This document shows positions 8,336 to 33,857 of a DNA stretch of 40,167 nucleotides, one piece after another. Source of the stretch: a virus. Both the position numbers and the translations under genes were made by a program. The notes under the pieces were generated by a model that worked only from the letters and a program-made list of their open reading frames with translations, was not told where the DNA came from and ran no database searches. The stretch is taken from IMG/VR virus record IMGVR_UViG_3300013093_000100, positions 1 through 40,167 of that record. One strand, given 5' to 3'. How positions within the stretch are numbered: the stretch's first letter is position 1; every line of letters starts with the position of its first letter.

Positions 8336-8356
8336 CCCGTTTATTCCTTATTTTTA

Positions 8357-8364
8357 TATTTATC
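8357..8364 (-). promoter_or_regulatory. T4-type late promoter box (GATAAATA)
   Basis: The minus strand reads GATAAATA, 7 of 8 matches to the T4 late consensus TATAAATA. It ends 21 bases before the ATG of the 677-aa fibre gene, in the gap after the 394-aa gene. Expected to be read by RNA polymerase carrying gp55. Confidence 0.65.
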
Positions 8365-8369
8365 TTAAT

Positions 8370-9554: not shown

Positions 9555-9577
9555 GTTGTTCTTCTTTAATATTCAAA

Positions 9578-9585
9578 TATTTATA
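9578..9585 (-). promoter_or_regulatory. Perfect T4-type late promoter box (TATAAATA)
   Basis: The minus strand reads TATAAATA, identical to the T4 late consensus, 23 bases before the ATG of the 394-aa gene. It overlaps the stop codon of the preceding 566-aa gene (9581-9583). Confidence 0.75.
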
Positions 9586-11281: not shown

Positions 11282-11284
11282 TAT
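11279..11284 (-). promoter_or_regulatory. TAATG stop/start overlap coupling two fibre genes
   Basis: On the minus strand the TAA stop of the 730-aa gene (11281-11283) shares its last A with the ATG of the 566-aa gene. No strong Shine-Dalgarno sequence is visible just upstream, only GGTG, so termination-reinitiation is the likely route and would tie the output of the two fibres together. Confidence 0.6.
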
Positions 11285-13473
11285 AGCACACCAGTAAAGA
11301 TTATGTAATTTATAGTCTGATAAGGATTCATAATTGTAACAGGTTGACTAGTTTGTGTTGCAATCACTCCTGAACTATTTGGTAATCCTTGCCCTTGACC
11401 TGAAGCATTTGTTGTAGTTAATCCAAGACCGCTATCGGCTGAATTATCAATTGCACTAGGATCAGGTAATCCTACAGCAAAATATTGTGTAGATCCTGTA
11501 TTCAAACTATGTCTGTGATCTGGCAAGTTGGCAATCTGTAGTGTAACCGTGTTAGTTCCTGAGCTTGCTCCGATGATATCACTACTAGGATCTGTTACTC
11601 GGCCAACTGCGCCGCCGCCTGCCGATATTTGTGTATTAGGATTACTTGATGCAGGAACAGTAAGATTATTGTTCATATTATCTGCACCTAATCCGAATCT
11701 TCCTCTTAAATCAGGTAATGCAAACGTGTTATTACCTTGTAACAATACTTGAGATTTATAATTAAAACCGATTGCAGTAAATAAAGACGAATATATTCCT
11801 TGAGGAACTTCACTACCATCGCAAAATAAGTATCCGGAAGGTGGCGTAGTTCCTGCATAAGGTAGTATAGTTCCCACAGGTATAGCATACATACCTGCAT
11901 CTTTAAGGAAACTAGCTTTAGTTTGTTTTAATAATGTACTATTTGTATTACCCGGACGATTAATAATTATTTCATCGGATCCATAAGTATCAGTTGCAGA
12001 TGTTTTATTATTAATAAAATCTGAACTTAATGATGTTGTAAAGGATACTGTACCAGTAGCTGTTTGTCCATTAAATGTAAATCCAGGACTAGTGACATCT
12101 CCAATCATATTAAATTGAGTTGAACTTGATAATTTTGCCGCGCCACCATTTACGTTACCAGATAATGATCCTGTAAAATTACCGTTAAATGTTCCGACAA
12201 AATTCTGAGCATAAATGTTTCTAAATTGCTGAGTAGCAGAACCAATATCATAAAGTTGATTAGCAGTTGTATCTGCACTATTTTGACCAGGCAATATAAC
12301 TGACCCAGCGGTCGGTGTTCCGGATACTAAATTATTAACAAATATTTTACCATAATTTGTTATGTTACCACCAAAATTACTGTTTAGTGATACGCTTAAT
12401 CCGCCTGTTGTTTTAATACTGCCAGTGCCAACACTTGTTGAATCAGTTGTTCCAAGAACATTAACTCCACCACTTGTAGTAGATGCAGTAATAACACCTT
12501 TAACATCTAAAATACTTGCAGGACTAAAATTATTAAGTCCAATTCCAACTTTTCCAGTTGGATCCATATAAACTACTGTACTTGCTGTACCTGCGTTAGT
12601 TAAACTAAAATTAACACTGCTTCCTGAATTAGTGCTGTTAAAAATAACTGCATTAGCATTTTTACCTATTGTAAAACTATTGTCACTACCAATTGTTAAT
12701 CCGATATTATTTTGAATTGTTAGTGGATAATTAGTTTTGCTTGCCTGGTCTGATCTTAAAAAATTGTTCGATGGAACAGCAACATTGTTAATTAACAAAG
12801 CGTCAGCTGATGTTGCTGTGCCCCAGAAACGACTTAAACTAGTTGTTGATGTAGAATCAATACTACTTAAATTTACACCTTCATTAATTGTTGTAAATCC
12901 TGCAATAGCAGTTTTAGGTGTAAATGTATCTTTACTTATAATACAAACTCTATAACCAGTTGATCCTGCTCCCGAAGAATACATAGACACTACAGAGTGA
13001 GAAATCGATGGGCTAGCATTATCTAAAATATCTTCGACAATAGGACCCGTCATTGCACCCTGGCTAAACTGTGGTCCGATTAGAATCCAAGAACTTCCTG
13101 AAAATAGATATAACTGACTGTTGGTAGTATCTACCCATAAATCTCCTGTTGTACTCGATTCAACGCTAGGAATATTTGACGCAGGCGCTTTTTTTAATGC
13201 ACCGGCTTCAACCCAGTTACTGCCGTCATATACTTTAAGTATACTAGCAAGATTATCATACCATAACTGACCTTGTACAGGATTAGATGGAGCAGTAGGA
13301 TTGGCAAAGTTTTCAAGAAGATGCAAAAAATCTCCAGCAATAACTGAACTGTAACCATTATAATTTTGTCCTACAAATGTAAGACTAGTTTGGTTATTCA
13401 AACTTTGATCTTGAACAGTAATTGGTGGTTTGCTAGGATTGGTTGATTCTGTATAATTTACTACATATGGCAT
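11281..13473 (-). CDS. Tail-fibre-like paralogue with a complete phage tail collar domain (730 aa)
   Basis: Residues 1-130 form the shared N-terminal module (LTFVGQNYNGY, HLLENFA, GQLWYD, GDLWVDTTNSQLYLFSG). Residues 147-230 form the second module ending RFWGTATSADAL. The C-terminal 205 residues (526-730) are a tail collar domain: IPVGTILPYAG, PSGYLFCDGSE, FALPDLRGRFGLGAD, LPDHRH at 650-655 and the terminal NPYQTINYIIFTGVL. Collar domains occur in T4 gp12-type short fibres and other adhesins; in gp12, paired His residues of the tip bind metal, so the HRH motif is a candidate metal site. Preceded by AAGGAGAG 5 bases before the ATG and separated by only 11 bases from the 202-aa gene. Best candidate here for a gp12-like receptor-binding protein. 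Confidence 0.88.
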   Translation of the reverse strand: MPYVVNYTESTNPSKPPITVQDQSLNNQTSLTFVGQNYNGYSSVIAGDFLHLLENFANPTAPSNPVQGQLWYDNLASILKVYDGSNWVEAGALKKAPASNIPSVESSTTGDLWVDTTNSQLYLFSGSSWILIGPQFSQGAMTGPIVEDILDNASPSISHSVVSMYSSGAGSTGYRVCIISKDTFTPKTAIAGFTTINEGVNLSSIDSTSTTSLSRFWGTATSADALLINNVAVPSNNFLRSDQASKTNYPLTIQNNIGLTIGSDNSFTIGKNANAVIFNSTNSGSSVNFSLTNAGTASTVVYMDPTGKVGIGLNNFSPASILDVKGVITASTTSGGVNVLGTTDSTSVGTGSIKTTGGLSVSLNSNFGGNITNYGKIFVNNLVSGTPTAGSVILPGQNSADTTANQLYDIGSATQQFRNIYAQNFVGTFNGNFTGSLSGNVNGGAAKLSSSTQFNMIGDVTSPGFTFNGQTATGTVSFTTSLSSDFINNKTSATDTYGSDEIIINRPGNTNSTLLKQTKASFLKDAGMYAIPVGTILPYAGTTPPSGYLFCDGSEVPQGIYSSLFTAIGFNYKSQVLLQGNNTFALPDLRGRFGLGADNMNNNLTVPASSNPNTQISAGGGAVGRVTDPSSDIIGASSGTNTVTLQIANLPDHRHSLNTGSTQYFAVGLPDPSAIDNSADSGLGLTTTNASGQGQGLPNSSGVIATQTSQPVTIMNPYQTINYIIFTGVL

Positions 13474-13484
13474 TTATTCTCTCC

Positions 13485-14093
13485 TTAAACTGACACTAGG
13501 CCAGTTAAACTTTGAATACGTACCGTGTAATCAATTTGAACTAAACGATTTAAGCTCTTTAATACAGGGTGAAAAATAACGTGTGTTAACAATAATGGTG
13601 TGCCATCTGCATTAAGGCTTTGTAATCCTAATTCATCAAACACATATGCAGTATCACCGTTTGCTGTAACATCATATGCTTCTTGGCCACTTGGCTCACC
13701 ATAATCAAGTAAACAGGTAACAAACACATCTGTATAGTTATTGCCAGTTGTATGGCGTGTTTCCATAAAATTTCTAGTAGGATCTAAATTAGTACTGGAA
13801 TTCTGATTTACTATTTTACTATAAGTTTGATTATACAAACTAGCATTAACACCCGATGTATTAGGTGTTAAGTAAGTAATAATTCCAGTAGGATCAATAC
13901 TAGTTCCGCCATTCCCAAAAGCCATATTGTAAATAAACCCTTGTCCGCTATTTGCAAGGCTGTTTGCTAATGCTACACTAATATTTTCATAATGAATAGC
14001 ATTACGTTTATTAATATAAACTTCTTTAGAAATTGGATCGTGAATCTTAATATGACCCTCGATATGAATTCCCGTTACGTCTTTAGTCTGCAT
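13485..14093 (-). CDS. Conserved T4-like virion structural protein, 202 aa, function unknown
   Basis: Residues 11-45 read like a conserved opening (EGHIKIHD, then KRNAIHYENISVALANSL), followed by FIYNMAFGNGG at 53-63 and a C-terminal block with YVFDELGLQSL and HVIFHPVLKSLNRLVQIDYTVRIQ. I recognise this pattern as an uncharacterised structural protein of T4-like marine phages, usually close to the fibre genes. There is no signal peptide, membrane segment or enzyme motif. It lies between the giant protein and the first fibre gene, so a connector between baseplate and fibres is a reasonable guess. An NATAAATA box lies 20 bases upstream, and AGAGAG precedes the ATG. Another possibility is a small wedge or fibre-attachment protein replacing T4 gp8 or gp9; sequence alone does not show this. 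Confidence 0.75.
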   Translation of the reverse strand: MQTKDVTGIHIEGHIKIHDPISKEVYINKRNAIHYENISVALANSLANSGQGFIYNMAFGNGGTSIDPTGIITYLTPNTSGVNASLYNQTYSKIVNQNSSTNLDPTRNFMETRHTTGNNYTDVFVTCLLDYGEPSGQEAYDVTANGDTAYVFDELGLQSLNADGTPLLLTHVIFHPVLKSLNRLVQIDYTVRIQSLTGLVSV

Positions 14094-14129: not shown

Positions 14130-17100
14130 TTAAGTGGTAGTTTTATAGCCAGAATACCAAATTCCCGGAACAGCTTTAATAAATTCTGCAATAATGCTAT
14201 TATCATACAAAATATTCACATTGCTATCCCATACTTGACCTGTTGTTGTTACAACTGTTACTTGTGTGCCTAGGGTCAATGGATTAGTTAACGTTATCAC
14301 AGGATTAACTTTATCAATACTAAAATCTGCTGAAAATTTAACATCGCCTGCAGGACTATACGGTGCGTTATTTACGTTAAACACGTAGTAATAAGGATCT
14401 AGTGCACCATCGTGCCATACTCCTTTCTTCAAACGTATATTTCCTACGAAGAAATGCCAATAACTACTATCTTCTGCAAATGTAGTTGAACTTGTATGAT
14501 CTTCAGTGCAACGATATGTATACTGTCCTACAATTACATTTGTGCCAGCAACATATGGTGTGTTAGGTAACCAAATACCAGAATTATCATAACCGCCTAC
14601 AAATATTTCCAACGCATTAACATCAGTTGGAACAAAATCAATTGTAACTGAATTACCGCCTAGTGATGTAATTGTCTGCGATGTTACTGTATCTTTGTAC
14701 GGAATAGTCTCACTTGCACCTATACCTTGTACATTAGTGCCAGCTTTATTCAAATTATAAATGCCTGTACCTAATGTACCTCTACGAAGTTGTCCTAATA
14801 CATTACCAACTTTTGTAAAGTATTCTATACGCTCTCCTCGGATTTCGACTACACCGGGTATATAATTATTATTTGTTAAATTTGGTATATCCAATTGACT
14901 TGCATCAACTACTGTAATTGTAGTATCATTCCAATGCAAATCTTGGGCTAATTTTGTTTGTTTATTAGCATTTAATCTCTTATAACTTACGCGATTTAAC
15001 ATGTCTTTGAATTGCATATATGCTATGCCAGACTGTAATATATTATTACCAAATGTTAGAATAGATATCTTATCTCCAGTTACTGGTGGTATTGCTAATT
15101 GAACCGTAATACGATCATCATTTAATTTATACTCAATAGTTGGCGTTAATAACGTATTATTCTTTATAACCCATACATAGTTTGTATCGATAACCGGTCT
15201 ATCCAGTGTTATTAACCCGCTTGTAATTTGTTTATATTCAAAGTATTTTATACTATTTGCTGCAGATGTGATAGTCGAGCCAACAGTTATCTCTGTTCTT
15301 TCAATATCTAAATATGTATGGTCGTATGAACTAATAACTTCTACAACATGAGTATTATCGTATGCTTGACTAAATGTTATTTGATTAGTTGTTGCATCGT
15401 AAGTATAACCATTTTCAGTTGTTATACTAATAATTAATTCATCTCCAACATATTTTTTATATACTAATTCATTAATAGTAACAGATATACCACTTAAATC
15501 TACTGTATAATCTTTTTGCACAGTTAGTATTACACCGTTAGCAATTACAACTATATTTGAAATAGGAATTGTAAATGGTTCTGCTCTTTCTGAATCAACT
15601 GAATAGACTAATTGATTATCTTCTATTGTAAAGTAACTGTTAATAGGTGCTGATAAAATTGTGTTGTCAACTCTTACAATTGTACTAGTCTCGTATGGCA
15701 AACTTACTCCTAACGGATAAGTTAAACTATAAGTAGTTCCACCGTTTGTAGAAATAGTTTGTGTACTTGTAACACTAAATGTTTTTTGATTGCCTGAAAC
15801 TATTATGTAATTAATTAAAGCATTGAACGATGGAGCTACAGAGAATCGAATACCGACTACATTTGCAGTTGCATATGTGCTATCAGTCTTAAACAATACC
15901 GGTGTCGACACAACACCGTCGACATATACCAACGATGTTAGAGTTGATTGCCATTCCGCTGTTGTGATAAACTCTGTTGTTGTTCCGTCACTAACAAAAT
16001 AATCTAAATCTAATAAATTGGCACCATTGAATCCAATACTATAAATTGTAATCTGTGTGCCAACTGCTGGAACTGAATTAAAAATAATAGATTTTAATCT
16101 ATAATCTATACTATAATCAGTACCGTACGTTTTAATTACTCCGTTTTCTTTTACAATAATAGCACGATTGCTATTTGGCTGTTGAGAAAGGATATACACA
16201 AATTTAGTACCATCGCCTATAAAGTTATCAACTTTAATTGCAGAACTACCAACATATGGTCTGTCAAATACTTTAATAGCAACAGCATCTACTACTTGTC
16301 CTGGTACAACTTCTTCCGGAGCTGGGCTTGTATTTTCAGTTACAAATCCGTCTCCATCAATATTAATATCATCGACAGCCAATCCCGTTGCTGTTGAATA
16401 AACTCCAGATGCATTTGCTGTTGTACCTCCAGATAAACTTGTATCATAATCAATATTAGATGGTATAGAACTTCCATCGCTAGTCGATTTACGAATAATA
16501 AATTGGTCGCCGTCGGATACCGTAAATCCATTTACACCAACTGGCAACGTAAATGTAAAAGGACTTGAACCAACAACTGGTGTTTCTATAATTGCATCAG
16601 GATTAGTAGGAGACCCAGACATTTCAGTATAATCAAGTGCATCTAATCTCACAGGATTTAGATATCCTGTTAAGTTTAATATTGTTCCTTCTGGTAAAGA
16701 AGACGTTAAGGTTGCTACACCTCCTGAAGATATGTTAACATCTATAGGCTGTATTAATGTTCTAGTAAAAGATACACTTGTGCCTAATGGCATATACGCA
16801 TAAACTATAGAGCTAATTTCAACTCTATAACTATCTATTATTTTTGTAACTGTAGTTCCATAAACAATAGTATCAGGCGTACTACAAGTTACAACATCAC
16901 CAAGATGTATATTTTCAGTGCTTGTTAATTTAAGTATATAACTACCTGCATAATTAAAATTAAACGCTAATGTTTCGCCGTTAGCAGGTGTACTATTAGG
17001 TGCGGCACTAAGTGTTAATGTGTTTCCATTCACAGATAATACTGTTTGATTGCCAGCAAATCCGTTACCAGTTACGGCCATGCCTGCTTGAATTCCAGTT

Positions 17101-20100
17101 GCATTATCAACAGTAAGTGTTGTAGAATAGCTGCCGGAAGATTGATACAATGCTGTCACTGAAGTTGTGTGAACAGTAGTAACTATAGTTGCTGTAACAG
17201 GCTCTGCAAAAATGCTATAATTAAAACTTAGTACATCATTATATGTGCCTGTGCTATTATCATAAGAATCTGTATGACTTTCAATATAATAAATGTTTAC
17301 GTTAGTGCCAGGTGTCCAGGTTGACGGAAATGCTATACCATTTACTGGAAATGTGTATGTCCCAGCAGCTACTGTAATATTATAGTCATCAAAATTAGAA
17401 TCAAAGTTATCCCATGACCCTGTAGAAAATGGTGCTGAGCCCCATCCGCTTGCTATATTAAATCCTAAACCGTTAACAACTACACCACCATAATCGATGC
17501 CAGTCATTAATTGTGCAAAATCTTTACCTAACATTCCAGAAGTCGGATTATAGTAATAATTAATTCTATCAATTGCATTTAATCTAGCAATGTCAATTAA
17601 GTATGTTACTACAATTGTTCCAGTAGGAGCAGATCCTGCTACAAAATTAAGATTTCCAGTATATTGTGTATACCCAGATATTTTCTTAGCGACCGTCGAT
17701 AATGTGTATAATTCCCTTAAAACTGGTATGCCATTAACTGTTACTTTAGATTGATTAACACGAATATCAGGAGCCCATGTCAAATTAAATTGTAATTGTT
17801 TTCCATTTCCAGTAAATGTCTGTACTTTTTGTAATTGTGTATTGTAAACAGAAGTAGTAATACGATCAAATGCTAATTCCACTGAGTTAGAACGAACAAC
17901 ACTATCGCCAATAATAGCAACAGCTCGCGCAGGTACTCCAATTGAATTTAGCCCGCCTTCTATAGTCACTGTTGGAGCCGACAAATATCCGCTACCTGGT
18001 GTCATCAATACAATACGATTAACAGATCCATTATAATAAAATACTTGTGCAGTTGCACCACTACCTGAATCGCTTGTTATAACTACCGTTGGCTCACTGA
18101 CATAGCCCGAACCGCCACTGACTAATATTAGTTCAGTTACACTAAATCCAACATTATCTAACCAGAATTTCCAAGGATATGTTTGAATAGCAGAATCGCC
18201 AGCAACAATTTTTCCATCAGATACTGTAGTCTGAATAAATGTTATTTTACCATTTTCGTAAATAGGCTGTAAATCAAAATCTGTAATCGGTAAAGATGCT
18301 GGATCTAAACTAGTATAATCATCAATGTATTCTCTAACTTTTGTTCGATACGGTTTAACTTCATTAACATAATCTTCAAAATTACTTAGATTATCAACAG
18401 GATACGTTACAGGTTGATTTAACGAACCGACATTATGTCTTGCTTTAACAAAACTAGTTTTGAATATCCAATCAACATAAATTTGTTCACTAAATGCATA
18501 TCTAACACTATCAAAGAATAAGTTTAAGTATGCTTGTACAAATGTAGTATTGCCTACAAAAATATTATTTTTAATAGTATTCAATATAATTCTTAATTCA
18601 ACACTAGAAGAATTATCATAACCAATGCCGTCAAAAATGTCAGAATCTAATCCTTCATTAGACCCTATCATTTCATATAATGAAGTGCTAAATTGTATAG
18701 TTCCGTTTTGTATTCCAACAATCTTATATGTTTGTGTCCAATCAACTGATGTTGAATTTGCATATTTTTCTAATAACAACCATCCTCCAGAATTGCCTGA
18801 AAGCACTTTTACAAGCTCGCCTATTGAAGGGGTTATAGAATTCAAATCAACAAATGTATTAACTAGATAATCTGCCGAAGTAAATTGACTGTACCCAGTT
18901 GCGTACCAATCTACATAACTCCAATATTTTCTAACATCATATGTTTGTGTTAATGTTCTATTCCATGAAGATGTAGTTGTATCGTACAAATATACACTCC
19001 AATTACCGTTTGCCTGACTATCGCTGTTCACTAATACTCTATAATTTGTTTGACCATATGTACTAATAAATGCTAAATCAGCATCAGTTGCTACTTCAAT
19101 ATTCCATAATCCTGACTCAAAGGTAGGTGGAGTATCATACGATTCTAAAGAAGATATATTATTTGAATATGCAATATCATATTGTATCATAAACTGATTA
19201 ACAGTTTCAATAACACATTTTAATGCTTCAAATCTATTAACAAACATGCTCTGACGTGGTCTATTTTCAACACCATACCAAAGTTTTGGAGGGAAAGATC
19301 TGTCCGGAACACTACGTCCATTAGAATCTACTCCGCATAAACTATCAATCCATTTCTGTTCGATTGCAGGAGGTAATGTTGTGTTTGGATCATTGCTAAT
19401 AATCTTCCATTGTGTATGAATATTCTGATCTGTTTTGTCAATGGTCCAGTATTCGATACTCAATACAACATTTGCGTCTACTAAGTAATTCGATGCATTA
19501 GTTAAACTAAACGAATTTGTGCCAGTGAGAGCAAGGTATGTATAATCTTGTCCGTGCGGATTTGCAATTAAACTAGCTACATCATTTGCAGACATGTGTC
19601 TTCCCGGAACATCAGGAATTATAACTTTATTTTTAACCCAGAAATAATATGTATATACTGTGGTATTAGTTGTTGTATTAATAAATGATGTTGTAGAATA
19701 TGCGGCATTTGAATACAAACTTTTGCCACTTATTCCTGCCGCTATGCCTGATGCAGTACCTGCTAATGTATCCCATTGAGTCGGTGTATATGATGTTTGA
19801 ACCCATTCGTAAATATCAATACTTGCACCTGTTGCCAATGTATTCCATGTGTTAGTTCTATAAACAACATCGCTATCATAACTATTTACAAACTTTGCAG
19901 TCGATAAATTCCACCACAATGTTCCCACTTGAGATGGTCCCCAACTATTACCTAAATCAACATTTACAGAAGAATTTCCTGTTGTATAAACCGCAGGGTC
20001 ATAATATGTTTTATATTTTATTTCTTCATCTGCTGGGCCTGGGATTTTTCCTTGTAACGGATCTACTACATCTAAATAAGTTACTAATGTTCCTAATGTT

Positions 20101-23100
20101 TTATTATATAAGAACGCTTTTTTAACTTTTGTAATGTCAGGAATTGCAATTTGTTGATTTTTAATTGTCCACGAATAAGTTCCGTTTGATTTTGTATAAT
20201 TCCAAATTTGTCCAACTTGTGTCGAAGACACGGTATAAAATGGCGCTCCTACAAAAATTTGGTTCGAACCTACTGCAAACCCATTACCATACCCGTCAAA
20301 TTCTTGATTAGTAGTCGGTAGTGTTTCACCGAATACCCAGTTATTAGCATAGCGATCATACACATCAACACGCCCTGTAACTGGATTGTTTGTTATAAAT
20401 CGAGTAGATTCTTTATCAAAAGTAGTCTTATTATCATCGAGTGTAGTATCAGTTGTTGTTGTACCGTTTTTACTATAAATGACTAGCGTACTCGAATTGT
20501 TCATAAAGGAAAGTTTGTTGCCAAATAGACCCCATTGTTCTGGTTTGTGGTCAACAATATGCTGATATACAGAGTATTGCGAATCTGCATAAGAATAAAC
20601 TGTAACTGCGCCCTGTCGTGGAACTATAGGATTAGTATTACTATACATATCGTCGGATATAGCAATATACATACCATCATCGGAAACTGCAATGCTTTGG
20701 CCAAAACTTGTATCAGTACCTGTTAAACTTGAAGAAACGACTGACTGAGCTATGCTTACATAATAAGTGCCAGATCCGCCAGAACCAGTACCAAGTCTAA
20801 CAATGTTTGTATTAGTAGCAACAGTTCCGCCGGTAATTAGCATACCGTTTTGTAGAGTTCCTGACGGAGTTCCAGTAACTGTTAAGATGGCAAACGCGGC
20901 AGTTAGTGCTTCAGATCCTACTGAGTTTGTTCCGCTAACTGTCCATGTACTACTTGCGCTTGTTCCTGTGCCAGTAAGATTTTCTGTAATATATGTTCCA
21001 GCATTAACACTAGTTCCACTAATTACTTGGCCAATAGCTAGTCCTGTGCCAGAAGGTGCAGATGTAACAGTTAGTGTTGATCCGCTGATACTACCCGTAA
21101 AAGTAACAGTAGTGCCGTTAGCAATGCTACCTGTAAAAGTAACAGTACCTGTGATAGTTTGTGTAGGAGAACTTAAATTAAATCCAGTTCCTGTATTTTT
21201 ATAAATTAATACTTGTCCATTTGTCGTGCCTGCACTGGCACTAATAACTAATGTAGAATTATCAGAACTTACATCTATATTATTTCCGTAATTACTTCCA
21301 GATATTCCGGCATTGCTAGTACCATATCCCCATCCATTAGACACAAAACTTATAAGACCACTAGGTGTACTATCCGGTGCTATATCAATTATTATTGTAG
21401 TTAAATTTAATACAGCATTAACAACTTGATTCGATGCAAATCCTGTTCCAACAACTGTCATTCCTGGATGTATATTTTCTGTAGAAGTCACCACTAATGT
21501 AGTACCAGAACTGCCAACAGGATTATATGCAGTAGTAGCATGCGTTATATAAGAATAATTTAAGGTGTAAACTGTATTAGTACCCGATGCACCGATAAAC
21601 AACGAATTATTTCCAAATGTTAAAGTAGATCCGAAATATTCATTATTTTGTGGCTGTGGACTTAATATAGAATCAACTAATTCAAAATTACCAACAGCAT
21701 CACGTTGATATAAAGTAATGACACCTTGATTAGTATAACTAGAATTAAATCCGTTAGGATCTACTGGAATATACAATGTTTTTTCCCAAGCAACGGACCC
21801 TAGAGAAGAAATGCTGGTAATACTAAAATTGCCGTCTGTCGAAACAGTTAATACTTTAATAATAATATCATTGCTAGAATCGGGGTTGACACCTGTTCCA
21901 CCTACATTATATCCAGATATCTTTAATACATCACCAGAAAAATAACCGCTACCTGCATTATTAATTGTTACATTGTAGCCAGTCAATGTTGTAGTTACAT
22001 TAAATGTTGCGTTCGATCCCAACGATAATTCTGGAGCAACATCGATGTAATTAATGTTTGGAACATATACAGTTGTTCCAGATGAATTTGTATAAGTTGG
22101 GTATGGCTGACTAGAACTTATTGATGTTATAGTTCCAACACCGTGAGCGTCTACTCCAGTAACTGTAACTTGTATATAATTTTCATCACTACCGCCTATC
22201 GATGTTCCAGGTATAATTAATACATTACCAGTTTTGTACCCAACACCTCCTTGAGCAATAATTACGTTGTAAGATCCGGCACTGATTACATTAATAGTAA
22301 ACACTGCACCAGAAGCTAAAGATTCTGTTGTTGCACTAGCAACATTTGTATAAGTCGGTGCTAATGAATAATTTTGATTAATGCCTATAATTGTGCCAGT
22401 AATCGATGGGACAGTTAATGAAGAATCGTAATTTGTATATTGAACATAAGAAGTTGTACAATTGGTTACTAAAAATATACCATTATATCCAGTATTTGAA
22501 ACAGTATTTCCTGAACCGGGAGTTTCAAATCCACTGATTGTAATTGCGGATCCCACTGCAAATGGTGCAGATGATAATGTATTAAAATATATTGTTACGG
22601 TATTAGTTGGATCGGGTGGTATTACCGATGTTGCTAGTAATGAAATATATCCTGTAGGAATTTGATAATAAGTTGCAGGTGATAATCCATCTGTAACAAC
22701 GTCTAACGCATGATAAGTTGTAGATGGATTATAAGTTCCTTTGTATTTAGAAACTACATTACTCGCAGACGGAGATCCTACTGCAAACCATTTATTATCG
22801 TCAGATATAGCTAATACTGTAGATAATACATTTCTTTGATTAGCATTTATAGATAACACACTTATAGAAAATCCGGATCCAGTTCCGCCAACATCAGAAC
22901 TGTTAACACTTAATGTATTACCTGTATGATATCCTACACCGCCAGACACTATCTGTGCAGATGTAACGTGACCGTTTACAACACTAATATTTGCAACTGC
23001 CCCTGAGCCAGATCCGCCAGTGAGAGGAACTTGATAATAATTTTTAGATCCAGATAATGGTGTGTAACCACTACCTGTTGAAACTGGAGATAATGTTAAA

Positions 23101-26100
23101 TCTATAATAGAACCGGACGTTGGATACGTTTGTGTAACATTAGATGTTATGGTTTCTGAAATATTAGGTGCTTGTATAATTTGTTTTTCAGTCCAAGGTG
23201 TCAACGCAAACGGTTTATAATACATTGACAATTGACCATCTGCTGTTGAAAATGCTGCCACTGTGCCATCTTTACTAACAGATATTGCTCTGCCACGATT
23301 TAATTGAGTAATTGTATTATTAAAATTAATATTAGATGCTGTATATGCAGGATTATATTTCCAAGTAGCCCATTTTCCATCTCCAGCATCATCAGTCCAT
23401 GCTAACTCGCCTGGGTTCAATTGTGTCAATGCTAAACTATCTAAGGCATCAATAGATCCTATACGCTGAGGCATAAAATTGTATACTGTAATAGTTGTAA
23501 GATCGGCAGCAACTAATGTTGGAAATCCCGTGATAGTTGCAGATAGTACAAACGAATTTAATGTTACACTAGAAACTTGATAAAAACCATTTATAACATT
23601 TTTTGTATTCGTTGTGGGTAAATTCATATTAACACCTACCCATGCTCCTGTTTGTAAAGGAACTAAAGAAGAAGATGTTATTGTAAGATTTCCAGGAGTA
23701 TAACTGAGTCCTGTAACTGTAATACCAGTGTCTGTATATCTATACACATTCCAAGAATATGGAAAAGCATCAAATACTGTCCAAACATATACACCATTAT
23801 TAAAAGACGTAATGGCAGGATATAATCGATTTCCACTACTATCTACATCATTAATATTTGACAATTGTTTTAGACTAATAAACACATCACCTGAATTAAC
23901 ATATCCTGCTGTACGTAATAATGGATTATAATATTCGAGTACAGGAAATGGAGTAGACTCGTATACAGGTGGTTTTGAATAAACATCAGAAGGAGTTTGT
24001 TGTATTACAAATGAATTTATATCGGCTTTGTGTTCTTGTGTAAGCAAATAACCTTGAGGATTAGTTTTAATTAAATTATTATCTATTACAAATTCTATTT
24101 GATCGTATGCTTTGTTAGCACCATACTGTCCAACACGAACAGCCCATTCTTCATAGAATGTTAAACTTTCTTCTGAATCAGATGTTAACACATTAAACAA
24201 ACTATTAAGAACATTTTGCGTTCCTTTATCACGAATCATTCCTTGATAAAATTTGAATTCACTTACTGGATCTTGTATAATATTATCTAAATATTGACGT
24301 TTTTGATATCCAATTAAATGTTGTGCAACTGCTTGTTGTTCGCTATCAAAACTATCGATATCAGTACTATAGAAATCTGTAAACTGAGTGGCAATATTTG
24401 TCCAGTTTGGTAAAATTTGTGATGTTGGTTTGTTCGATAGTTGAGTCCAATCAGAAGAAGTGAATACCGACGATCCTGGTAGGAATTCATTCGCACTATA
24501 ATAATATCCTTGAAAGGCTACAATATCTCCCATATTGTAATCTTGCCAAGCCTGCCAATTATTAATTTCAGCAGCATCGAAAATAAATCCAGGAATGTCT
24601 AATCCACCATACCAATTAGTAGTCACGTAACCTGAGACTTTGATTCGTTGTTGTCTATATCCGCTCGGTGGGTTATATATAACATCATTAAACATTGTTG
24701 TATTATTCATAATAATAACATGTTCATGCTGTATAAAATGGAATGTAGCTGAATAAATGCTTGAATTATCTGTAGTTGTGTAACTTACAGTATTACCGGA
24801 CCTATAAGAATCTAAATGTACAGGATCAACTGGCGTGCCATCTACTTTGAAAATTTCATATTGATAGAAACTATTTGTAACACTATCAACAACCGACAAC
24901 GGTGAGTAAAATTTCAATAACTTTGCTGCCGGACTTAAACTAATTACACTGCTACCGACATTACTTAACCCTGGTAACAATGTATATTTTGTTAAATCAA
25001 ACACATCTGCAGGAGGAAGATTGTAATTTGAACTATAATAACTTCCATTATAGCGTACTACTGCACCGTATAAAACAGGTTGATCTGGCGACCAATCAGT
25101 CCATTTATCTTGTCCTACACTCCAATTTTGTGTAGTCCAGAACAAAAATTCTCTGCCACTTTGATCCCAGTTAGATACAGACTGTAAATTTTCATTAAAT
25201 TCATCAAATCCAAATCCTTGATCTTTTAGCCATTCTCCATAACCAATTATAAAATCGAATGTAGATTGAATAGAGTTAAATTCTGTTCCGTAAGGAACAA
25301 CTACAGGATTTGAACGATCCCATGCTGTTCTTAATATTGCGTTTTGCCCGCCTGTAACAGGCAATTGCGGAATAGACTTAAAATAATTTGTTGCAAAGTC
25401 TTTTGTCGATGTATGCGCAGTTATTGTTGCATAAAATGAGCCTTGGTACTGAACTATAGATCCGATATTGTATATTTGATTACTAGCCCACACAGAATAT
25501 GCTTCTGAAATACCGCCAACATTAATAGTTGAACCAGATTGTGTTGCAGGATAAAATACAAAATATGGCTGTGTTTGACTATATCCAGATACTTGGAATC
25601 CGTCATTTAATTTTGTAATTATAATTCCGCTATACGTTATTTTTTTAACAGGACTAGAACTATTTAAGAATACAGTATAATCCTCTGCAGGTACAAATAC
25701 ATTTCCTGTACTTGCAGGTGTCTTGCTTTCTAATAATAAACTAAATTGATTTTGATTAGTAAACGCTCCTAATCGATAACTTAACTGAACATTCATTAAC
25801 TGAAGATCAGTTTGATAAGAAGTATAAGATTTTTGGTTGTTACTAAAAATTTGATTAAAAATTAAATCTACAATATAGTTAACAATACCAGCAGTTTGTA
25901 TTCTTGTAGAACTTGAATACGAACTTGGTATGACAAGATCTTGTGGTTTAACACGCAAATTAGTATCTGAGTAAACTAACTGTCCTGCAAGATTTCGTAC
26001 AATTCGAGATCTGTCAAACAAGACACCAATTGTATTTGCAGGTTTTAATAATAGTGTAGCTATCAAAACACTAAATGGATAATAACTACTACGTCTCCAC

Positions 26101-29100
26101 GATGCTTCTACAGGGCCAACATCTCCAAATATAAAATTAAAATCTATGCTAGGTGTAATTGTACCTGTTGATAATCCCGATTGTAATGGGCTGACTAGAT
26201 TACCAGATTCATCTACTGGAATGTGATTAGCAAGATATGGTCTTACATATCCTGTTTTAACAACTAACGGCACACCTGGTTCACGAACAATACCTTTGGT
26301 CAAATCATTCCATAACACCAAGTTATCACTGGTATAAGGAGCTGGGCCGTAAACACTCTGCCACCAATTTGGCTCAATACTAAACCCTAACATTTCCCAA
26401 GGACAAAGATTGGGTCGATCTGTATCTAACAACCAACGGTATACACCTCTCCAATAACCAGGTATTGCAGTACCATTAGGTCCTGAATTTTCCGAATAGT
26501 TATATGTAAATGTATTATTAATATCATAGTTAAGTTGCTCAGTAAAATCAACTCCAACTAAAGCTGCCCATCTATAAAAATTAGTCGACAATACAGAATT
26601 AAATTCTGTTAATGTATAGTCAGTTGTTCTAGAATAACTAGGAATTATATCATTAATATCAAAAATAGAAGGATTGTATTGGACTTTAATATTATTAAAA
26701 ATTCTTGTTTCTAATTCTAAAATTAATGCATCTCTATAATCATTATAAGCTAAAACTTGGCTACCATCATGTCCTTGAATCATTAATTGTGGCGAACTTA
26801 ATGTTGTATCTGTATAAATTTGCGGAACATAAGCAGGCCAAATACCTAATTTCGTAGGTGTTTCTGGGACGAAACATCCATCAGTACTATCATATTCTTT
26901 TGTTGTAATTATATCGCCAACTGTCAAAATAACATTTGATGTTATCACTACAAAACCTTGATTACTAAAAGTATAATCTCTTCCATATACTAACTGTGTT
27001 CGAACTCCACTCGAAGTATGATATACGTTTACTGCTTTATTAGATAGTTTATCTAATGTAAACACAGCAGACAACGGATAAGTCTTAATTCTACCATCGA
27101 CTACTGTAAGATCAGTTGTGACATTTGCACCGTAAGGCACCATGTCACTAAAATAATAAGGCGCTACATTTGGTTTGTTGGTATTAATTTTTTGTAAAAC
27201 TAAATTAACCATCGTAACTGGATCAGAATCTATTCCTAAATTACTTGCTACAGTTATGAATTCTTTCTTAAAATTATTATAATCATCTTGTGCCTGTTGA
27301 ACAGCTTTAACAACATTGTTTGTTTCTGATGTTATATGATAAGAAGATAAACTTACTGGTCCACTATGTTGTACAAACTTAGTACCATATTGAGTTATAT
27401 TACCTAAGTCTCTTAAGTTGCTTGTACCTGGAAATGATCCAATATATGTTGCACCGTTAATATCGTTAACAGATGGAGTATTATAAATGTTATCGATTAT
27501 ACTATTAACATGATCGATTACTTCGCCTAACGTAAAATTACCCATTGTATCATTTAATGGATTATTTTGTAAGTTTAGTGGTATCTCATAAAACCCTACG
27601 TTGTTCAAAACTGAACCTACTGGAGGATATATTTTAATTGTAACAATATCTGTTAATGCAACAGGTGTCTTAAACACCACTGTATAATATGCAATATTTT
27701 TCACTAATGACCAGTTATCAATTGCAACTCTAGAAGAGTTAATGTATACTCTAACATTGCTCTGATCTAAATTAAATGACGATGGCGATTCTGCAAAAAC
27801 ATCAATATTAAAATTGTTTGTTTTATTTGAGTTCTTAAAAATTCTAACAACACCTTGTGTATGTTCACTTGTACAAGTTTGCCATCCATTTACATAAACG
27901 GTATTTCCTAAATAATCTTGCGATCTTAAAAATCCAGTAGAAGCATTAACTGTTATTATGTTTGTTGATTCTTTGTATTGAAAAGTATCCGTAGCAAAAT
28001 TAAAATTAAAAACTATATCTCCAATATTTGTAACATTTTGATACGATAACGGAAATCCTAAAGCAATATCTGCATTACCCGAACCAATTTTATATGAAAA
28101 TAGTTGCGTTCCTTTGAATGTAGTACCATTAAAGGTTGTTGAATCGCTAAAACTAATACCATTTGAATCTACAAGATCAAATAATGGAGGTTGGTTAGTG
28201 GTTGTTTTTTGTTGTGCAAGAACCCATGTAGATCCATTAAACCAATACATCATACTTTGATTTGTTACGCCTTGCGTAATTAGTACAGTTTGACCTATTG
28301 TAGGAACTAGTGTTTCAACTAGATGTATTTGCAAATTACCAGTATCATCAACATCTATAAATTCAACAGTATATACATTGTTTGCAATTAATGAATTAGT
28401 ATCTGCTGTAAAAATTACTCGTTGGCCTTGAGATATTTGTATACCATCTATGTGGCTTTTTAATATTCCAGTTTTGGTATTAAAAACTTGAATTCCTTCA
28501 AAAGTTGAAAATGCATCTGTTGTAAATGTATCAATCAAATCAACATCTAAAATTGCATTTGTTCCGAAATTAAATAATTTCAAGTCTGGTTCAAATTCGA
28601 TAATAGGGCGAGTAGCTCTTGCTGTTTGATCTAAATTAGGTATATCACCGTTATAACTTGCACTAACATTAATAACATCTTGATGGAACCATCTATTATA
28701 TCTTGACCAAGGATTATGATCTCTACTTGCACGATTAATTACCAAGTAATCCTTAGTGCTAGCATATGCAATAGCTTCGCTATATGGTGTACTATCAAAT
28801 GCAGATAACCCGTATTCATCTAACTGATCTTCTGTATAAGGGTTTATTACTTCTAATATAGTAGTAGGAATTAATTTAATTGCAGATCCAACACCTTCGA
28901 CATAGTATTCACTTGTTGCATATTCAACTGGTGTTACGTTTCCTGCAAATGCAATTTTCATACCGTTACTTAATGATGTACCATCAGGAAGGGTATATGT
29001 CTGCTTGCCCAGCACATCGGTTGTTACATCAATAAATGTATCTTCTTTAATATCAAATATTTCAATTGAGCCGCCTAAATTAATATCACTATCGCTTTGA

Positions 29101-29858
29101 TAATATAATAAACTAGGAGCATTTAATGGTATAGTAAATGTGATACTTCCAGAAGTTACAGAATAACTAGTAATAGATGAATCACGATAAATTGTAGTAG
29201 GGCTTAAACTTCTAGAAGTTCTAAAATTAAAAGGATTACCAGGGGTAACAATATTAAAAGTATAAGTCTGACCTCTAAATAATTTTAAGGTTGGATTTGG
29301 TGTGGCCCCGTCTGGAGTAAAAATATATTGATTGTTTGTACCTTCATTTTGTAAACTTACATTATAAGTACTTGTTATTGCGTTTTGTTGGCCGACTATT
29401 GTAATAGTTTGCGGGCCGTATGGTAGCCAATAATAGTGTTGAAAATTTACAAATTTATCCCAATCGATATGAGGGTCCCATGAATAAAATTCTTGTTTAT
29501 TTAATCTAGCGTGATTAGTAGTATTACCACCAAACACCTTAATTTGATTTACATAGTCTTGATAATCTTTGAAGAAAGTTACATTATTCAAAGAATCTTG
29601 AATTACAACTCCTGGTTCTAATTGATAATGCTGACGTGCAGGAGTTGCTGCTGTAACGTATACATCTGTATTTTTTGCTGCCTTTGCATTAGTTTCTCCA
29701 ATATATCCAGTTACTTTAGTTAGTGTACCAGGCTGAAATAACTGATCGATAGTAGACTGTAAAAACTTTTTATTAGCCGTTGTTTGATAAAATTTAGGTA
29801 ATAAATTTGCACTAAGACCTGCATTACCTGCCGGATTATTGTTAACTGTGTTTGCCAT
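14130..29858 (-). CDS. Giant modular baseplate-region structural protein, 5242 aa
   Basis: Predicted giant virion protein directly after gp6, where T4 has the gp7 and gp8 wedge genes; I see no similarity to either. The N-terminus ([40 protein letters not shown]) and later blocks (IQGHDGS near residue 1025, [24 protein letters not shown] near 5040) resemble large structural proteins of T4-like cyanophages as I recall them. Modules in order: conserved N-terminal part to about 1400; four W-x-Y-x-x-G-x-x-V-x-(Y/F)-x-G-x-x-Y boxes resembling carbohydrate-binding modules between about 1455 and 2400; a propeller-like region 2186-3230 with inserted GSGY-type repeats; a conserved part to about 3900; GSGY repeats 3904-3970; several T7-fibre-like beta units about 4010-4960; a fifth carbohydrate-module-like box near 5092-5120. 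The frame is uninterrupted. The ATG is 5 bases after the gp6 stop, with GTGGAG inside the end of gp6. Probably co-transcribed with gp6. Confidence 0.85.
16962..17126 (-). repeat. Giant protein repeat family, copy B
   Basis: About 55 residues, [20 protein letters not shown] then NGFAGNQTV and APNSTPANG, matching copy A at 21345-21506 ([20 protein letters not shown], then TGFASNQVV and APDSTPSG). The copies lie about 1460 residues apart, which indicates module duplication or exchange within the gene. Confidence 0.75.
20168..23297 (-). repeat. Propeller-like (FG-GAP/WD-like) repeat region within the giant protein
   Basis: Blade-like units can be read in order: [100 protein letters not shown] and [17 protein letters not shown]. 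Most are followed by a strand such as [20 protein letters not shown] or [11 protein letters not shown]. The alternation (start of blade, D-G/N turn, hydrophobic strand ending in G/S-A, then x-V-x-x-Y) is typical of seven-bladed propellers with FG-GAP-like repeats. Long inserts of GSGY and SGT-type repeats separate several blades. Boundaries are approximate. Confidence 0.6.
21345..21506 (-). repeat. Giant protein repeat family, copy A
   Basis: About 54 residues related to copy B at 16962-17126. Just downstream in the protein, at about 20720-21110, two further degenerate units of a related kind follow ([20 protein letters not shown] and [20 protein letters not shown], the latter ending [13 protein letters not shown]). 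This SGT/GTYxVS repeat is widespread in phage tail and other adhesive proteins. Confidence 0.7.
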
Positions 29859-29863
29859 TAATT

Positions 29864-32800
29864 TTATACTCCACTAGGTGCACTAGTAATAATTTGTGAT
29901 ATTATTGCAGGATTGTTTAACGCATTGCCTGTTACTGTTTTAAGATTAGATGATGTTAAACTAGATACGATAACTATATCACTAGCTTGCGCACAACTAA
30001 TAAACAACTGATTGCTAGGACATTGAATTTCAAATAAACTACCAAAATATTGTGATGATTGTTTTGGCACTATAACAAAATTACTAACATTAGGTGCCAT
30101 TTGATTTATAACATATGTTGCCAACTCTGAAAAGTAAAATGTATCTCCAAAGTCCCAATTTTCTAATGCAAAGAAACGATTTATAGCCGCTAATACGCCT
30201 GCTTGAATTTCTGCGTTTGATATTGCCACAGTCGGATTTACTACTACATTAAATGTTGCTTGTAGCAACGGATCAGCTGCTGTACCAAATAATAATGTAT
30301 AACCTACAGGATGATATATTATTTCATCACTAATTGATTTAATTAAATCCAACGAAGGACTTAATAAACTATTCAATTGACTACTGCTAGGAGGCAATGG
30401 TTCAGACACATTTGCCCCATTAATCCACTGTCTAAATTGTGTATCATAATCAACTGTTAGTACATATATATCCACTATATTACTTGCACCTGGGTCGATT
30501 CTACTATCATAATCGGCACTATGAATATACTGAAATTTCAAATTGTCTCGGCCAATATATACTTTGTAATCCAATGTAGGAGTTAATGTTCCAGTTACTA
30601 AACTTAACTGATTAACTACTCCGGTATCTGTAAAGTAAAAATATTGTCCATCTGTATATTGCGAGTAAGAACCTATTCCACTACTTGTTGTAATTATAAC
30701 TGTATTATTATCATTGCTAATGTACTGATAATCTTCTTCTCCGTGGGAGAGTAAATATTTTTGTTGTATGATATATGTCGGAGTAGAACTACTACCATAT
30801 ACAATATCTAAAAATAGTTGCGGATTATCAACTATTCCATTGTTATCTGAATCATTAAAACTTATAACAACTTTTGTAGGATCTGTATATCCGTCTAATC
30901 CTGTATATTCTGAAACAATTTCCCAAGCCATATCTGTAGTGAATGGATATGTACTGAACGGTTGTGGATTTACGTTTAAGACTTTAATTATATCTGTTAT
31001 TGTTTGATTATTAACAATATCATACATTTTTGATGTTGAATCGAAATAGAATGTAAGTTCTTTATCACTTTCAAATATGTAACGAGTATATCGAGTTGTA
31101 ATAGTATATGTTTGATTAGTAATTGTAAACAGCAATATCCAACTAGCATCTTTTTGACTGTTAGATGTATCGCCAGCATATTCTAAACTAAATGACGAGT
31201 TGGCAGCTAAATTAGTCTGAAATATAATCTGCCATGATTGTGTTACAATATCATATCTTAATCCAAATTGTTGATTAGAAAATATAAGATCTATCATTGT
31301 AGTTTGCGTAGTAGATCCAATAGTTTTAACAAAATTTGGAATTACTTGAGAAATAACACAACCGGTAGGTATAGATTTGTTTAGAGAAATTGCACCTATA
31401 CCAGATGATAATATTCCAGTGTAACCACCGACTCCTAATGTACCTTGACCATTGCCAAATACACTAACAACTTCGGCCCACAAATAAGTAACCCCATTAA
31501 TTGGAACACCAGATGCTGGTATAGATACTAATATATTATTCTTTTTTGTATTAAAGTAATAGCCTGTTGGCGCTATAAATTTTAGCAATGCTCCTTCTGT
31601 TACGTATGCTAAATTTGATTGCGTAGTTGTTGAAGAATATGTACCAACTGCAATTGCTGTATTTGATATGCTTCCAGATAAACCGGGAGAAGCAATATAA
31701 CCGGTTGATGTATTGCTATCACTTGTAACTTGCCCCCACAGATATGATGTAGATCCTGAAGTAGTTACAGAATTAATATAATACAAATAATAGAAATTTC
31801 TTAAATCAGGATTATTTAAGATATTATAAATGTCTGTTAATATCACATTCTCTATATCAAGCTGTGTAAGATATGTAAAATCAATTTGTGATGTAAAATT
31901 ATCAAGATAAATTATTCCATCATCTGCAAACAAATTTGTAGAACTATATTTTCCAGTAGGATCAATTAAATCAAAATATCGACTAATGCCACTACTAGTA
32001 CGATTTATACTTTTAACTTTAGCAACTTGTAAATTGGCACTAAGGGGACTAATATTATAATCTTCTCCTGTAATCATTCTATTCTGTGTATAGTATGTTT
32101 GCGGAGCATTTAATTGTATACTAGCATTAGACTCAGTTGGTGAAGAATTTGATACAGTTGTAGATAAACCTAAGTACACTGTTAATGTTTGGCTTTGTCC
32201 TGTAACTGATTTATAAGGAATTGTAACAGAAATATTACGCAAATCAGCAGGATTAATTGTATAATTTAATCCATTACTAGACCTATAGTACACTCTAAAT
32301 GTGCCTAAAGGTAATTGACCAAAGGTACCGTCACCGAACGCAATACTAATTTGATCATTAACACGAGTAATGACTTGATATATTGTGTTTACTTTTCCAT
32401 TTAGATTGTTATAAATTATGTTATTGCCAGTCAACGCAGGAACTTGTGTCCACAATGTTGTTTCTACTCCATGTTGATCTAACTGATATAACCAAACATC
32501 TGTGCTGTTAATATTTTGAACAGGAACATCTACTTGTTGGTTACTACTAGGTTGCGTAATAGTAAATGTTGCAGTATTCAATGCGCCTTGTGTAAAATTA
32601 AAAAAGAATCCAGTTGCTGAACTACCTGCACCGTATCCATCATCTTGATAAACACATGCTATACTATTTGCAATTTTAGGAGGTTCTTCGTATATAAATG
32701 GCTGACCGCTAAAACTGGTACTAGTTACTTCAAAATTCATTGTAGTACCGTTAACTGGTTTTGTAAAACTATAAACAGGTACATCGTTGTTAGTAGCATT

Positions 32801-33367
32801 AAATCTATACTGAGCTGTTGCTACTCCATAGATAGACTCAGCAGCTACTGGATTTCCATATTGACTTGTATTAGGTAATGCAGCATTAATAATTCTAATA
32901 AACTGATCATACCAATTAGAATTCGAACCGTCATTCCAAGTAATCACCTGTCCTGCAAGATTTCTGCCGTTACTATCAATAACATTTTCAGTTGTAGTAA
33001 TTGTACTAAATTTTAATAAACCAGTAGCTGCTACATTTCTACTAGCATTATATCCAATCATACGTGCTAAACGCAATACACTATCACGACGGCTAGCAAG
33101 TTCTAAGAAGTTTTCACGAGCGTTTAAGTCAACTCTAAAAGCAATACTTTGACCAACATACGCAATAAGATCGATTAGAGCAAGATATTCACTAGACTCT
33201 ATATAATCGTTAAAATCTTCAGGAAAATTAGTACGGATGTAATCAATCATTGTACGGCGTAAATTATCAAAGTCATAACTTTGAAAGTTAGCGTTCTTAA
33301 ATGATTGATATATTTTTTGCCAGTCTTCGGATACTAGCAGGTTATTTTGTCTATCCGTTGAGCTCAT
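29864..33367 (-). CDS. gp6: Baseplate wedge protein gp6, enlarged (1167 aa)
   Basis: gp6 forms the wedge dimer ring of the T4-type baseplate that holds the inner baseplate together and rearranges on sheath contraction. Residues 1-120 are strongly gp6-like: [69 protein letters not shown] and [10 protein letters not shown]. The C-terminal part has the baseplate-J-like end ([27 protein letters not shown]). It is much longer than the 660 residues of T4 gp6. Extra length sits largely in a beta-rich, Ser/Thr/Gly-rich region at about residues 560-850, with two YLW(G/A)-E/Q-V units. Start: ATG preceded by AGGAA, with an NATAAATA box 17 bases upstream. Next on the same strand is the giant protein. Confidence 0.93.
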
Positions 33368-33413: not shown

Positions 33414-33857
33414 TTACTGAGGTGTCGATGCTAAACCGTTTGCTTGATCGAACTGTAGCTGTAAATTTTGCTGTATATTGTAAATCAAATAAGTCAAAGT
33501 ACAGGCTATTTGTATACCTGTTTCGTACGGAGTGACTACTAAATTTGTTACAGATACTCGAGGATCTGCATTAAAAATTTGATTAACATTCTTTGTTATT
33601 AATACCTGCACTTCAGGGGTCATTGGTTCAAAAATTAAATCCCAAATTACCGTCCCGTAATCTGGATTCATTAATCGTTCACCTTGTCGTACATAAAAAG
33701 CATTAATAATATCTTGTTTAATTAATTCAAAATCGTATAAGGCAAAATTCTGTGAAGAGTTATTAACTGTACTAAAACCTCTATACATTTGTGGTTTAAC
33801 AGTACCAGATTTTCCAGTAATATTAACTTTAGGTGTATGATATAACGAATTTGCCAT
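33414..33857 (-). CDS. gp25: Baseplate wedge protein gp25 (147 aa)
   Basis: gp25 is the small conserved wedge protein that contacts gp6 and gp53 and nucleates sheath assembly; relatives are TssE of type VI secretion and the GPW_gp25 family. Residues 43-75 carry the signature FELIKQDIINAF, VRQGERLMNPDYGT and WDLIFEP. DPR at 98-100 stands where the family usually has EPR. The length is close to T4 gp25 (132 residues). The N-terminal 40 residues are a basic, poorly conserved extension. AAGGAG precedes the ATG, and the gene starts 9 bases after gp5 ends, so it shares the gp5 transcript. Confidence 0.95.
   Translation of the reverse strand: MANSLYHTPKVNITGKSGTVKPQMYRGFSTVNNSSQNFALYDFELIKQDIINAFYVRQGERLMNPDYGTVIWDLIFEPMTPEVQVLITKNVNQIFNADPRVSVTNLVVTPYETGIQIACTLTYLIYNIQQNLQLQFDQANGLASTPQ

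Follow-up and report, generated by a model that had tools for sequence, protein, structure and literature searches.

In the baseplate wedge, subunit BW3 is the heterotrimer partner of two gp6-type chains, and receptor-binding proteins (RBPs) attach to it in T4, A511, pyocin and others (PMC10811340); in XM1 gp17, loops within and after the first domain hold the spikes (PMC10457771). BW3 proteins (T4 gp7, P2 gpI, XM1 gp17 and A511 gp104) have a position after gp6 and a KGT-like motif and, in the known cases, an RBP-attachment role. Very large proteins in the gp7 slot are already on record for jumbo phages and cyanophages (phrog_10938, phrog_2885 and phrog_701, the last with 6,136 positions). Here we analyse one such protein of 5,242 aa, referred to below as the giant, which is encoded in a 40,167-base metagenomic fragment from IMG/VR (record IMGVR_UViG_3300013093_000100; the whole fragment is referred to as the window). 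The giant resembles the known BW3 proteins in its position after gp6 and in its KGT-like motif, but exceeds T4 gp7 in size ~5-fold and P2 gpI ~30-fold, and has no significant profile or fold match to this group. We consider it probable that the giant is a baseplate structural protein of a T4-superfamily jumbo-type phage, in the BW3 slot, with a wedge scaffold and peripheral modules for receptor contact or docking combined in one chain.

A comparable cyanophage protein is gp7 of S-SSM7 (S-SSM7_101, 3,007 aa; phrog_2885/phrog_4406), which, like the giant, is encoded directly after gp25-gp6. The two proteins share GxGY units, a small RG-type beta module and a helix-KGT-helix motif; however, S-SSM7 gp7 has no overall sequence homology with the conserved parts of the giant, and its KGT is at aa ~200 rather than ~1880. 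We note that S-SSM7 has two ~3,000-aa genes that are both labelled gp7 and that flank a gp9-type connector (L210:21861-40333), with the T4-gp7 KGT motif in only the first of them (L210:21861-30884).

The open reading frame (ORF) of the giant runs from position 29858 down to 14130 (14130..29858, minus strand), begins with ATG and has zero internal stops. A first-pass annotation of the window, made from the sequence alone, had described an uninterrupted 5,242-residue frame directly after gp6, and both its coordinates and its length were exact. The start codon is 5 bases past the gp6 stop, with a GGAG inside the final gp6 codons, just upstream of the start. Scanning viral contigs with aa 1-1000 of the giant as query yielded 366 relatives, and a profile scan yielded at least 595. 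In all 28 further contigs the giant is an unbroken single frame that spans the C-terminal match and is 4,521-5,659 codons long, and the 20 complete genes extracted from relatives encode 4,520-5,658 aa. Frameshifts, which the annotation had named as a finding that would count against it, are absent as a rule; among ~80 loci from the first scan, the frame is broken only in L012. This break (L012:18961-19053) is near the end of the propeller region described below, and reflects either a sequencing error or a real split. For eight independent pairs of sequences, the ratio of nonsynonymous to synonymous substitution rates (dN/dS) was 0.042-0.079 for aa 1-2000, 0.042-0.089 for aa 3241-4150 and 0.054-0.171 for the propeller region (aa 2001-3240); the ratio for the propeller region exceeded that for the frame (the other two segments) in all eight pairs, by a factor of ~1.3 to 3 and about twofold in most. 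Because the same open frame is found in independent contigs, and because dN/dS is well below 1, a chance frame and a chimeric assembly are excluded. The giant is a genuine gene; it is not an artefact, and misassembly has not fused it from several genes.

The giant is a member of an existing, uncharacterised family, annotated only as "virion structural" or "hypothetical". Most of its length corresponds to phrog_10938 in PHROGs ("virion structural protein", 3,324 positions), which includes RaK2 ORF070 and matches the conserved parts in colinear pieces (E 2e-109, 2e-108 and 1.5e-85). Homologues are encoded directly after gp6 in seven isolates: PA5oct (3,857 aa), RaK2 (3,326 aa), CBB (3,340 aa), XacN1 (3,313 aa), Vibrio 2.275.O (3,771 aa), Atu_ph07 (4,449 aa) and Phosso (4,555 aa). 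The gene order gp25-gp6-giant is common to the window and all of these isolates, and equals W-J-I of P2 and gp6-gp7 of T4; the giant does follow gp6 where T4 has the smaller gp7 and gp8, as first annotated. By contrast, Salicola phage SCTP-2 has a small gene after gp6, and its giant-like match (MF360958.1:137823-139169) is ~90 kb away from gp6, indicating that the linkage is not universal. Two of the homologues are virion proteins: the record for PA5oct EST35_0128 carries a note of detection by electrospray ionization tandem mass spectrometry (ESI-MS/MS), and CBB_236 was detected in virions with 21 unique peptides and 7.72% coverage (PMC5259590). Literature searches by title or abstract found no paper on the giant protein; what is new here is the dissection into frame and inserts, the contrast in evolutionary rate, and the proposal, with the KGT motif, of a BW3 identity.

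The conserved blocks near both ends noted in the first-pass annotation are indeed conserved, with a third at aa 3241-4150, and its picture of a fixed frame with accreted domains also holds. Across 21 environmental sequences, the two frame segments are of near-constant length (1,963-2,013 aa for aa 1-2000; 910-1,004 aa for aa 3241-4150), whereas aa 2001-3240 range from 652 to 1,240 aa. Frame profiles match seven of the seven isolates colinearly. The phrog_10938 proteins of isolates (RaK2 ORF070, CBB_236, PA5oct EST35_0128 and Atu_ph07 AUZ94962) thus have the same slot and the same frame, but at 3,313-4,555 aa they are shorter than the giant of the window; they lack the propeller region and the second and third of the CBM5/12-like boxes listed in Table 1, and have a shorter C-terminus. 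An AlphaFold model of aa 1-1180, built with 67 sequences, consists of beta-rich domains (mean predicted local distance difference test score, pLDDT, 75.6). In BFVD, this model aligns with a structural protein of Atu_ph07 over its length, and resembles A0A6J5L0K2, a "YHYH domain-containing protein" of an uncultured Caudovirales phage with no assigned function, in both fold and sequence (60% identity). The top Foldseek matches of the same model in the PDB are cupredoxins and multicopper oxidases, the search being swamped by a cupredoxin-like domain that recurs in cyanophage tail-fibre proteins. A type-1 copper protein was considered and rejected: the domain (aa 160-272) is without Cys, His or Met, and hence has no copper site.

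The fastest-evolving part of the giant is a propeller-like region with seven blade-like motifs at aa 2192-3194. Pfam FG-GAP_2 is found in 7 of 18 family members, with WD40-type matches in others, which agrees with the blades seen at first pass; the copy in the window has zero Pfam matches when searched alone, and a profile of the region has no significant match in any of the seven isolates. The carbohydrate-module-like boxes of the annotation likewise correspond to Pfam CBM_5_12 matches, and a model built from the CBM5/12 matches of the window finds four copies (Table 1). Box 1 scores 34.2 bits, against a gathering cut-off of 26.2 for CBM_5_12, and box 4 falls below it at 19.1 bits; CBM_5_12 is found in the C-terminal region of 12 of the 18 members. 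Boxes 2 and 3 coincide with profile segments that the isolates skip, and are therefore clean insertions relative to the isolates; box 3 is modelled at high confidence (model of aa 1640-2170). The predicted GSGY repeats were recovered as GxGY units at six places (aa 2262, 2307, 2538, 2636, 3916 and 3955). For the T7-fibre-like beta units, the prediction stands only in part: Phage_T7_tail is matched in 2 of the 18 members, and weakly, with a best E of 5e-6.

We propose that the frame (aa 1-2000 and 3241-4150) would be the wedge-bound part of the giant, the partner of a gp6 dimer, and that the propeller, the CBM5/12-like boxes and the C-terminal beta units would lie at the periphery, contacting the cell surface or docking the fibres encoded by adjacent genes. 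The most BW3-like piece would be the helix-KGT-helix at aa 1864-1891, perhaps with the N-terminal helix pair (aa 15-44) as its complement. We infer BW3 identity, surface exposure, binding and signalling; there would probably be six copies per tail, with surface contact passed to the sheath via gp6/gp25. The helix-KGT-helix ranks with the best-conserved blocks of the giant (conservation 0.89 for bin 1851-1900), and the motif is present in all seven isolates, as KGS in RaK2. Its helices, at aa 1864-1876 and 1881-1891, are modelled at modest confidence in the model of aa 1640-2170. T4 gp7 and S-SSM7 gp7 share a DFY..KG..SY..LF motif (E 4e-10) that the KGT block of the giant resembles; in P2 gpI, KGT is followed by TEWW, and in the giant by YEEWA. 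At the N-terminus, most homologues have an LLP-x-helix pattern, and the helices at aa 15-19 and 27-40 appear at low confidence in the model of aa 1-1180. A bolder version, to which we give only tentative credence, is that the two segments are halves of a single BW3 core that is split by ~1,800 residues, several domains having been inserted at the position of the XM1 gp17 spike loop, and that the propeller and C-terminal adhesin-like modules come after the core.

Several results weigh against the giant being BW3. Alignment with hhalign gives the N-terminal helix pair no support, and is weak for the KGT region (E 0.0018, Prob 15% versus cyanophage gp7; E 0.15 versus T4 gp7); in a window scan against cyanophage gp7, the KGT block ranks second, behind aa 4957-5046, the best window, which aligns with the N-terminus of that protein (E 1.5e-4, Prob 51%). 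Using HMMER, frame profiles detected nothing among T4 gp5-gp12 and gp53, and the top match of the KGT region among ORFs of T4, P2 and S-SSM7 was a P2-region frame that is not significant (E 0.42). Profile-versus-PDB sequence searches with five segments found no wedge protein, yielding only CBM5/12, weak WD40, a tailspike piece and chance matches, and there is no wedge protein in the best 50 of more than 1000 Foldseek matches. Furthermore, the CBM-like boxes may be structural, and the detection of the PA5oct and CBB homologues in virions does not place them in the baseplate. Foldseek of aa 1640-2170 gave zero matches below 0.001. The T4-gp7 family (phrog_964) is not matched in the giant of the window. 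Its lack throughout the records of PA5oct, RaK2, XacN1, Atu_ph07, Phosso and Vibrio 2.275.O, by contrast, speaks for the giant as BW3, although a diverged gp7 would escape such a search. The lack of a Tail_P2_I (PF09684) match in the giant is uninformative, since T4 and S-SSM7 were missed too, and the P2 gpI relatives among viral contigs are near-identical, such that they gave no useful profile. We therefore regard gp7 homology of the giant as suggestive only; the case for a protein in the BW3 slot with a probable BW3-like function is stronger than the case for a demonstrated gp7 homologue. To this extent the wedge role raised at first pass stands, on the position of the gene, the virion detection of two homologues, and the lack of any other gp7.

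A distal adhesin role, also raised at first pass, is plausible from the module content and the faster evolution of the propeller, the higher dN/dS of which fits a host-facing or a fibre-facing surface. Propellers are found in host-facing tail structures of other phages, namely the seven-bladed propeller of phiKZ gp131 at the baseplate periphery and the propeller platform of the phi11 RBP (PMC4901313); in those cases, however, the propeller is in a separate peripheral or receptor-binding protein, whereas in the giant it is inserted in a putative wedge protein. The CBM5/12 boxes suggest glycan binding. Nonetheless, docking is an equal possibility, because a similar CBM-like box has a match in the Milano tail spike, to the module that binds the tail. 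It may even be that the giant is a scaffold only, with its CBM-like boxes and propeller docking the fibres and the 202-aa protein encoded downstream, and with no contact to a host receptor. This alternative, which is compatible with a BW3-slot protein, is one that we take seriously but consider the lesser prospect: adjacent genes encode four fibre paralogues that share an N-terminal domain, but the propeller evolves faster than the frame, as expected for a host-facing surface, although a fibre-facing one could co-vary too.

We think it rather unlikely that the giant is instead a peripheral baseplate adhesin or a scaffold of the fibre network, with the whole chain outside the gp6 core and BW3 encoded by another, unrecognised gene. 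Most of its modules are beta modules of kinds found in tail fibres and spikes, the cupredoxin-like module among them, and its gp7 homology is not demonstrated. On the other hand, with SCTP-2 as the exception, the giant is directly after gp6 in all isolates examined, its 2,900-aa frame shows much stronger conservation than would be expected of an adhesin, the KGT motif is conserved, and no other gp7-like gene was found, though diverged ones would escape the search. The two remaining alternatives can be dismissed: a tape measure or another known protein of single function, a match to which the first-pass annotation would have counted against itself, has only the great length in its favour, and none was found along the giant, the folded parts of which are modelled as beta-rich rather than as a long helical protein, with diverse modules and length variation by domain gain; and the joining of several genes in a chimeric contig, conceivable for a metagenomic fragment, is refuted by independent assemblies, with a single frame in the 28 further contigs and seven isolate genomes and purifying selection along the length tested.

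Besides the giant, the minus strand of the window carries T4-type baseplate genes for gp53, gp25, gp6 and a gp5-type spike, whereas a gp55-type sigma factor is encoded on the plus strand. The 202-aa protein downstream of the giant is very strongly conserved, at 39-84% identity across relatives, including 39% to PA5oct, whose homologue is marked ESI-MS/MS; it has no Pfam or PDB match, and is a candidate connector between wedge and fibre network, perhaps of the gp8/A511 gp105 type. gp8 itself (phrog_977) is present in T4 and S-SSM7 but not in the window or the jumbo relatives, save for a 28-position match in Atu_ph07 (E 0.008). Four consecutive fibre genes (6302-13473, minus strand) share an N-terminal domain of ~130 aa (34-40% identical to that of the first gene) and are divergent beyond it; judged by this pattern, they are paralogous fibres with a common dock. 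Beyond them, a 1,898-aa ORF (580-6276, minus strand) looks like a long series of Ig/PKD-like beta repeats and matches no PHROG at E 0.01. The gp5-type spike gene (33867-35537, minus strand) encodes 556 aa; its counterparts in RaK2, CBB and Vibrio 2.275.O are ~880-895 aa and are annotated with lysozyme domains, and no search for such a domain was made in the spike of the window.

Table 1. Features of the giant and adjacent genes, with residue ranges in the giant and positions in the window
Feature	Residues (aa)	Position	Strand	Remarks
Conserved N-terminal frame	1-2000	23859..29858	minus	~30% identity to PA5oct, Atu_ph07, Phosso
N-terminal helix pair	15-44	29727..29816	minus	Proposed first half of BW3/gpI-like core; putative gp7/gpI relation
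Cupredoxin-like beta-sandwich	160-272	29043..29381	minus	phrog_677 match aa 156-269; range inferred from strands 151-268
CBM5/12-like box 1	1453-1501	25356..25502	minus	Pfam CBM_5_12 E 2.6e-8 near aa 1457; also at this position in Atu_ph07, Phosso, PA5oct
CBM5/12-like box 2	1583-1633	24960..25112	minus	Isolates skip frame-profile hmm 638-691
CBM5/12-like box 3	1765-1815	24414..24566	minus	Isolates skip frame-profile hmm 819-869
Helix-KGT-helix	1864-1891	24186..24269	minus	Proposed second half of BW3/gp7 core
Variable seven-motif beta-propeller-like region with inserts	2190-3240	20139..23291	minus	Fastest-evolving part
Second conserved frame block	3241-4150	17409..20138	minus	Conservation and profile matches
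Pair of GxGY units	3905-3965	17964..18146	minus	Module also present in Phosso, Atu_ph07 and S-SSM7 gp7
C-terminal region	4151-5242	14133..17408	minus	Length 901-1,653 aa (environmental relatives) or 301-677 aa (isolates)
Small beta module (...QLRRGTLGT)	4957-5046	14721..14990	minus	Related to module inside cyanophage gp7
CBM5/12-like box 4	5088-5143	14430..14597	minus	Pfam CBM_5_12 E 0.0014 near aa 5096
202-aa partner (phrog_11259)		13485..14093	minus	Directly downstream of giant
gp6 (phrog_10646)		29864..33367	minus	BW2-type wedge protein
gp25		33414..33857	minus	BW1-type wedge protein

The giant family is common in aquatic viral metagenomes, as judged from the relatives found by N-terminal scans (366 and at least 595). 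The giant also cautions that a CBM match in a phage protein may point to a docking module and not to sugar binding. Should the giant prove to be BW3, the wedge would have been merged with the receptor-contact or docking layer in a large class of jumbo phages, and part of their host range would map to a delimited variable region, aa ~2190-3240. If, in addition, the BW3 core is split as suggested above, a single chain, at most ~5,660 residues long, would serve as both wedge and receptor-contact device, and host recognition would be coupled to the sheath trigger with no separate attachment protein involved.

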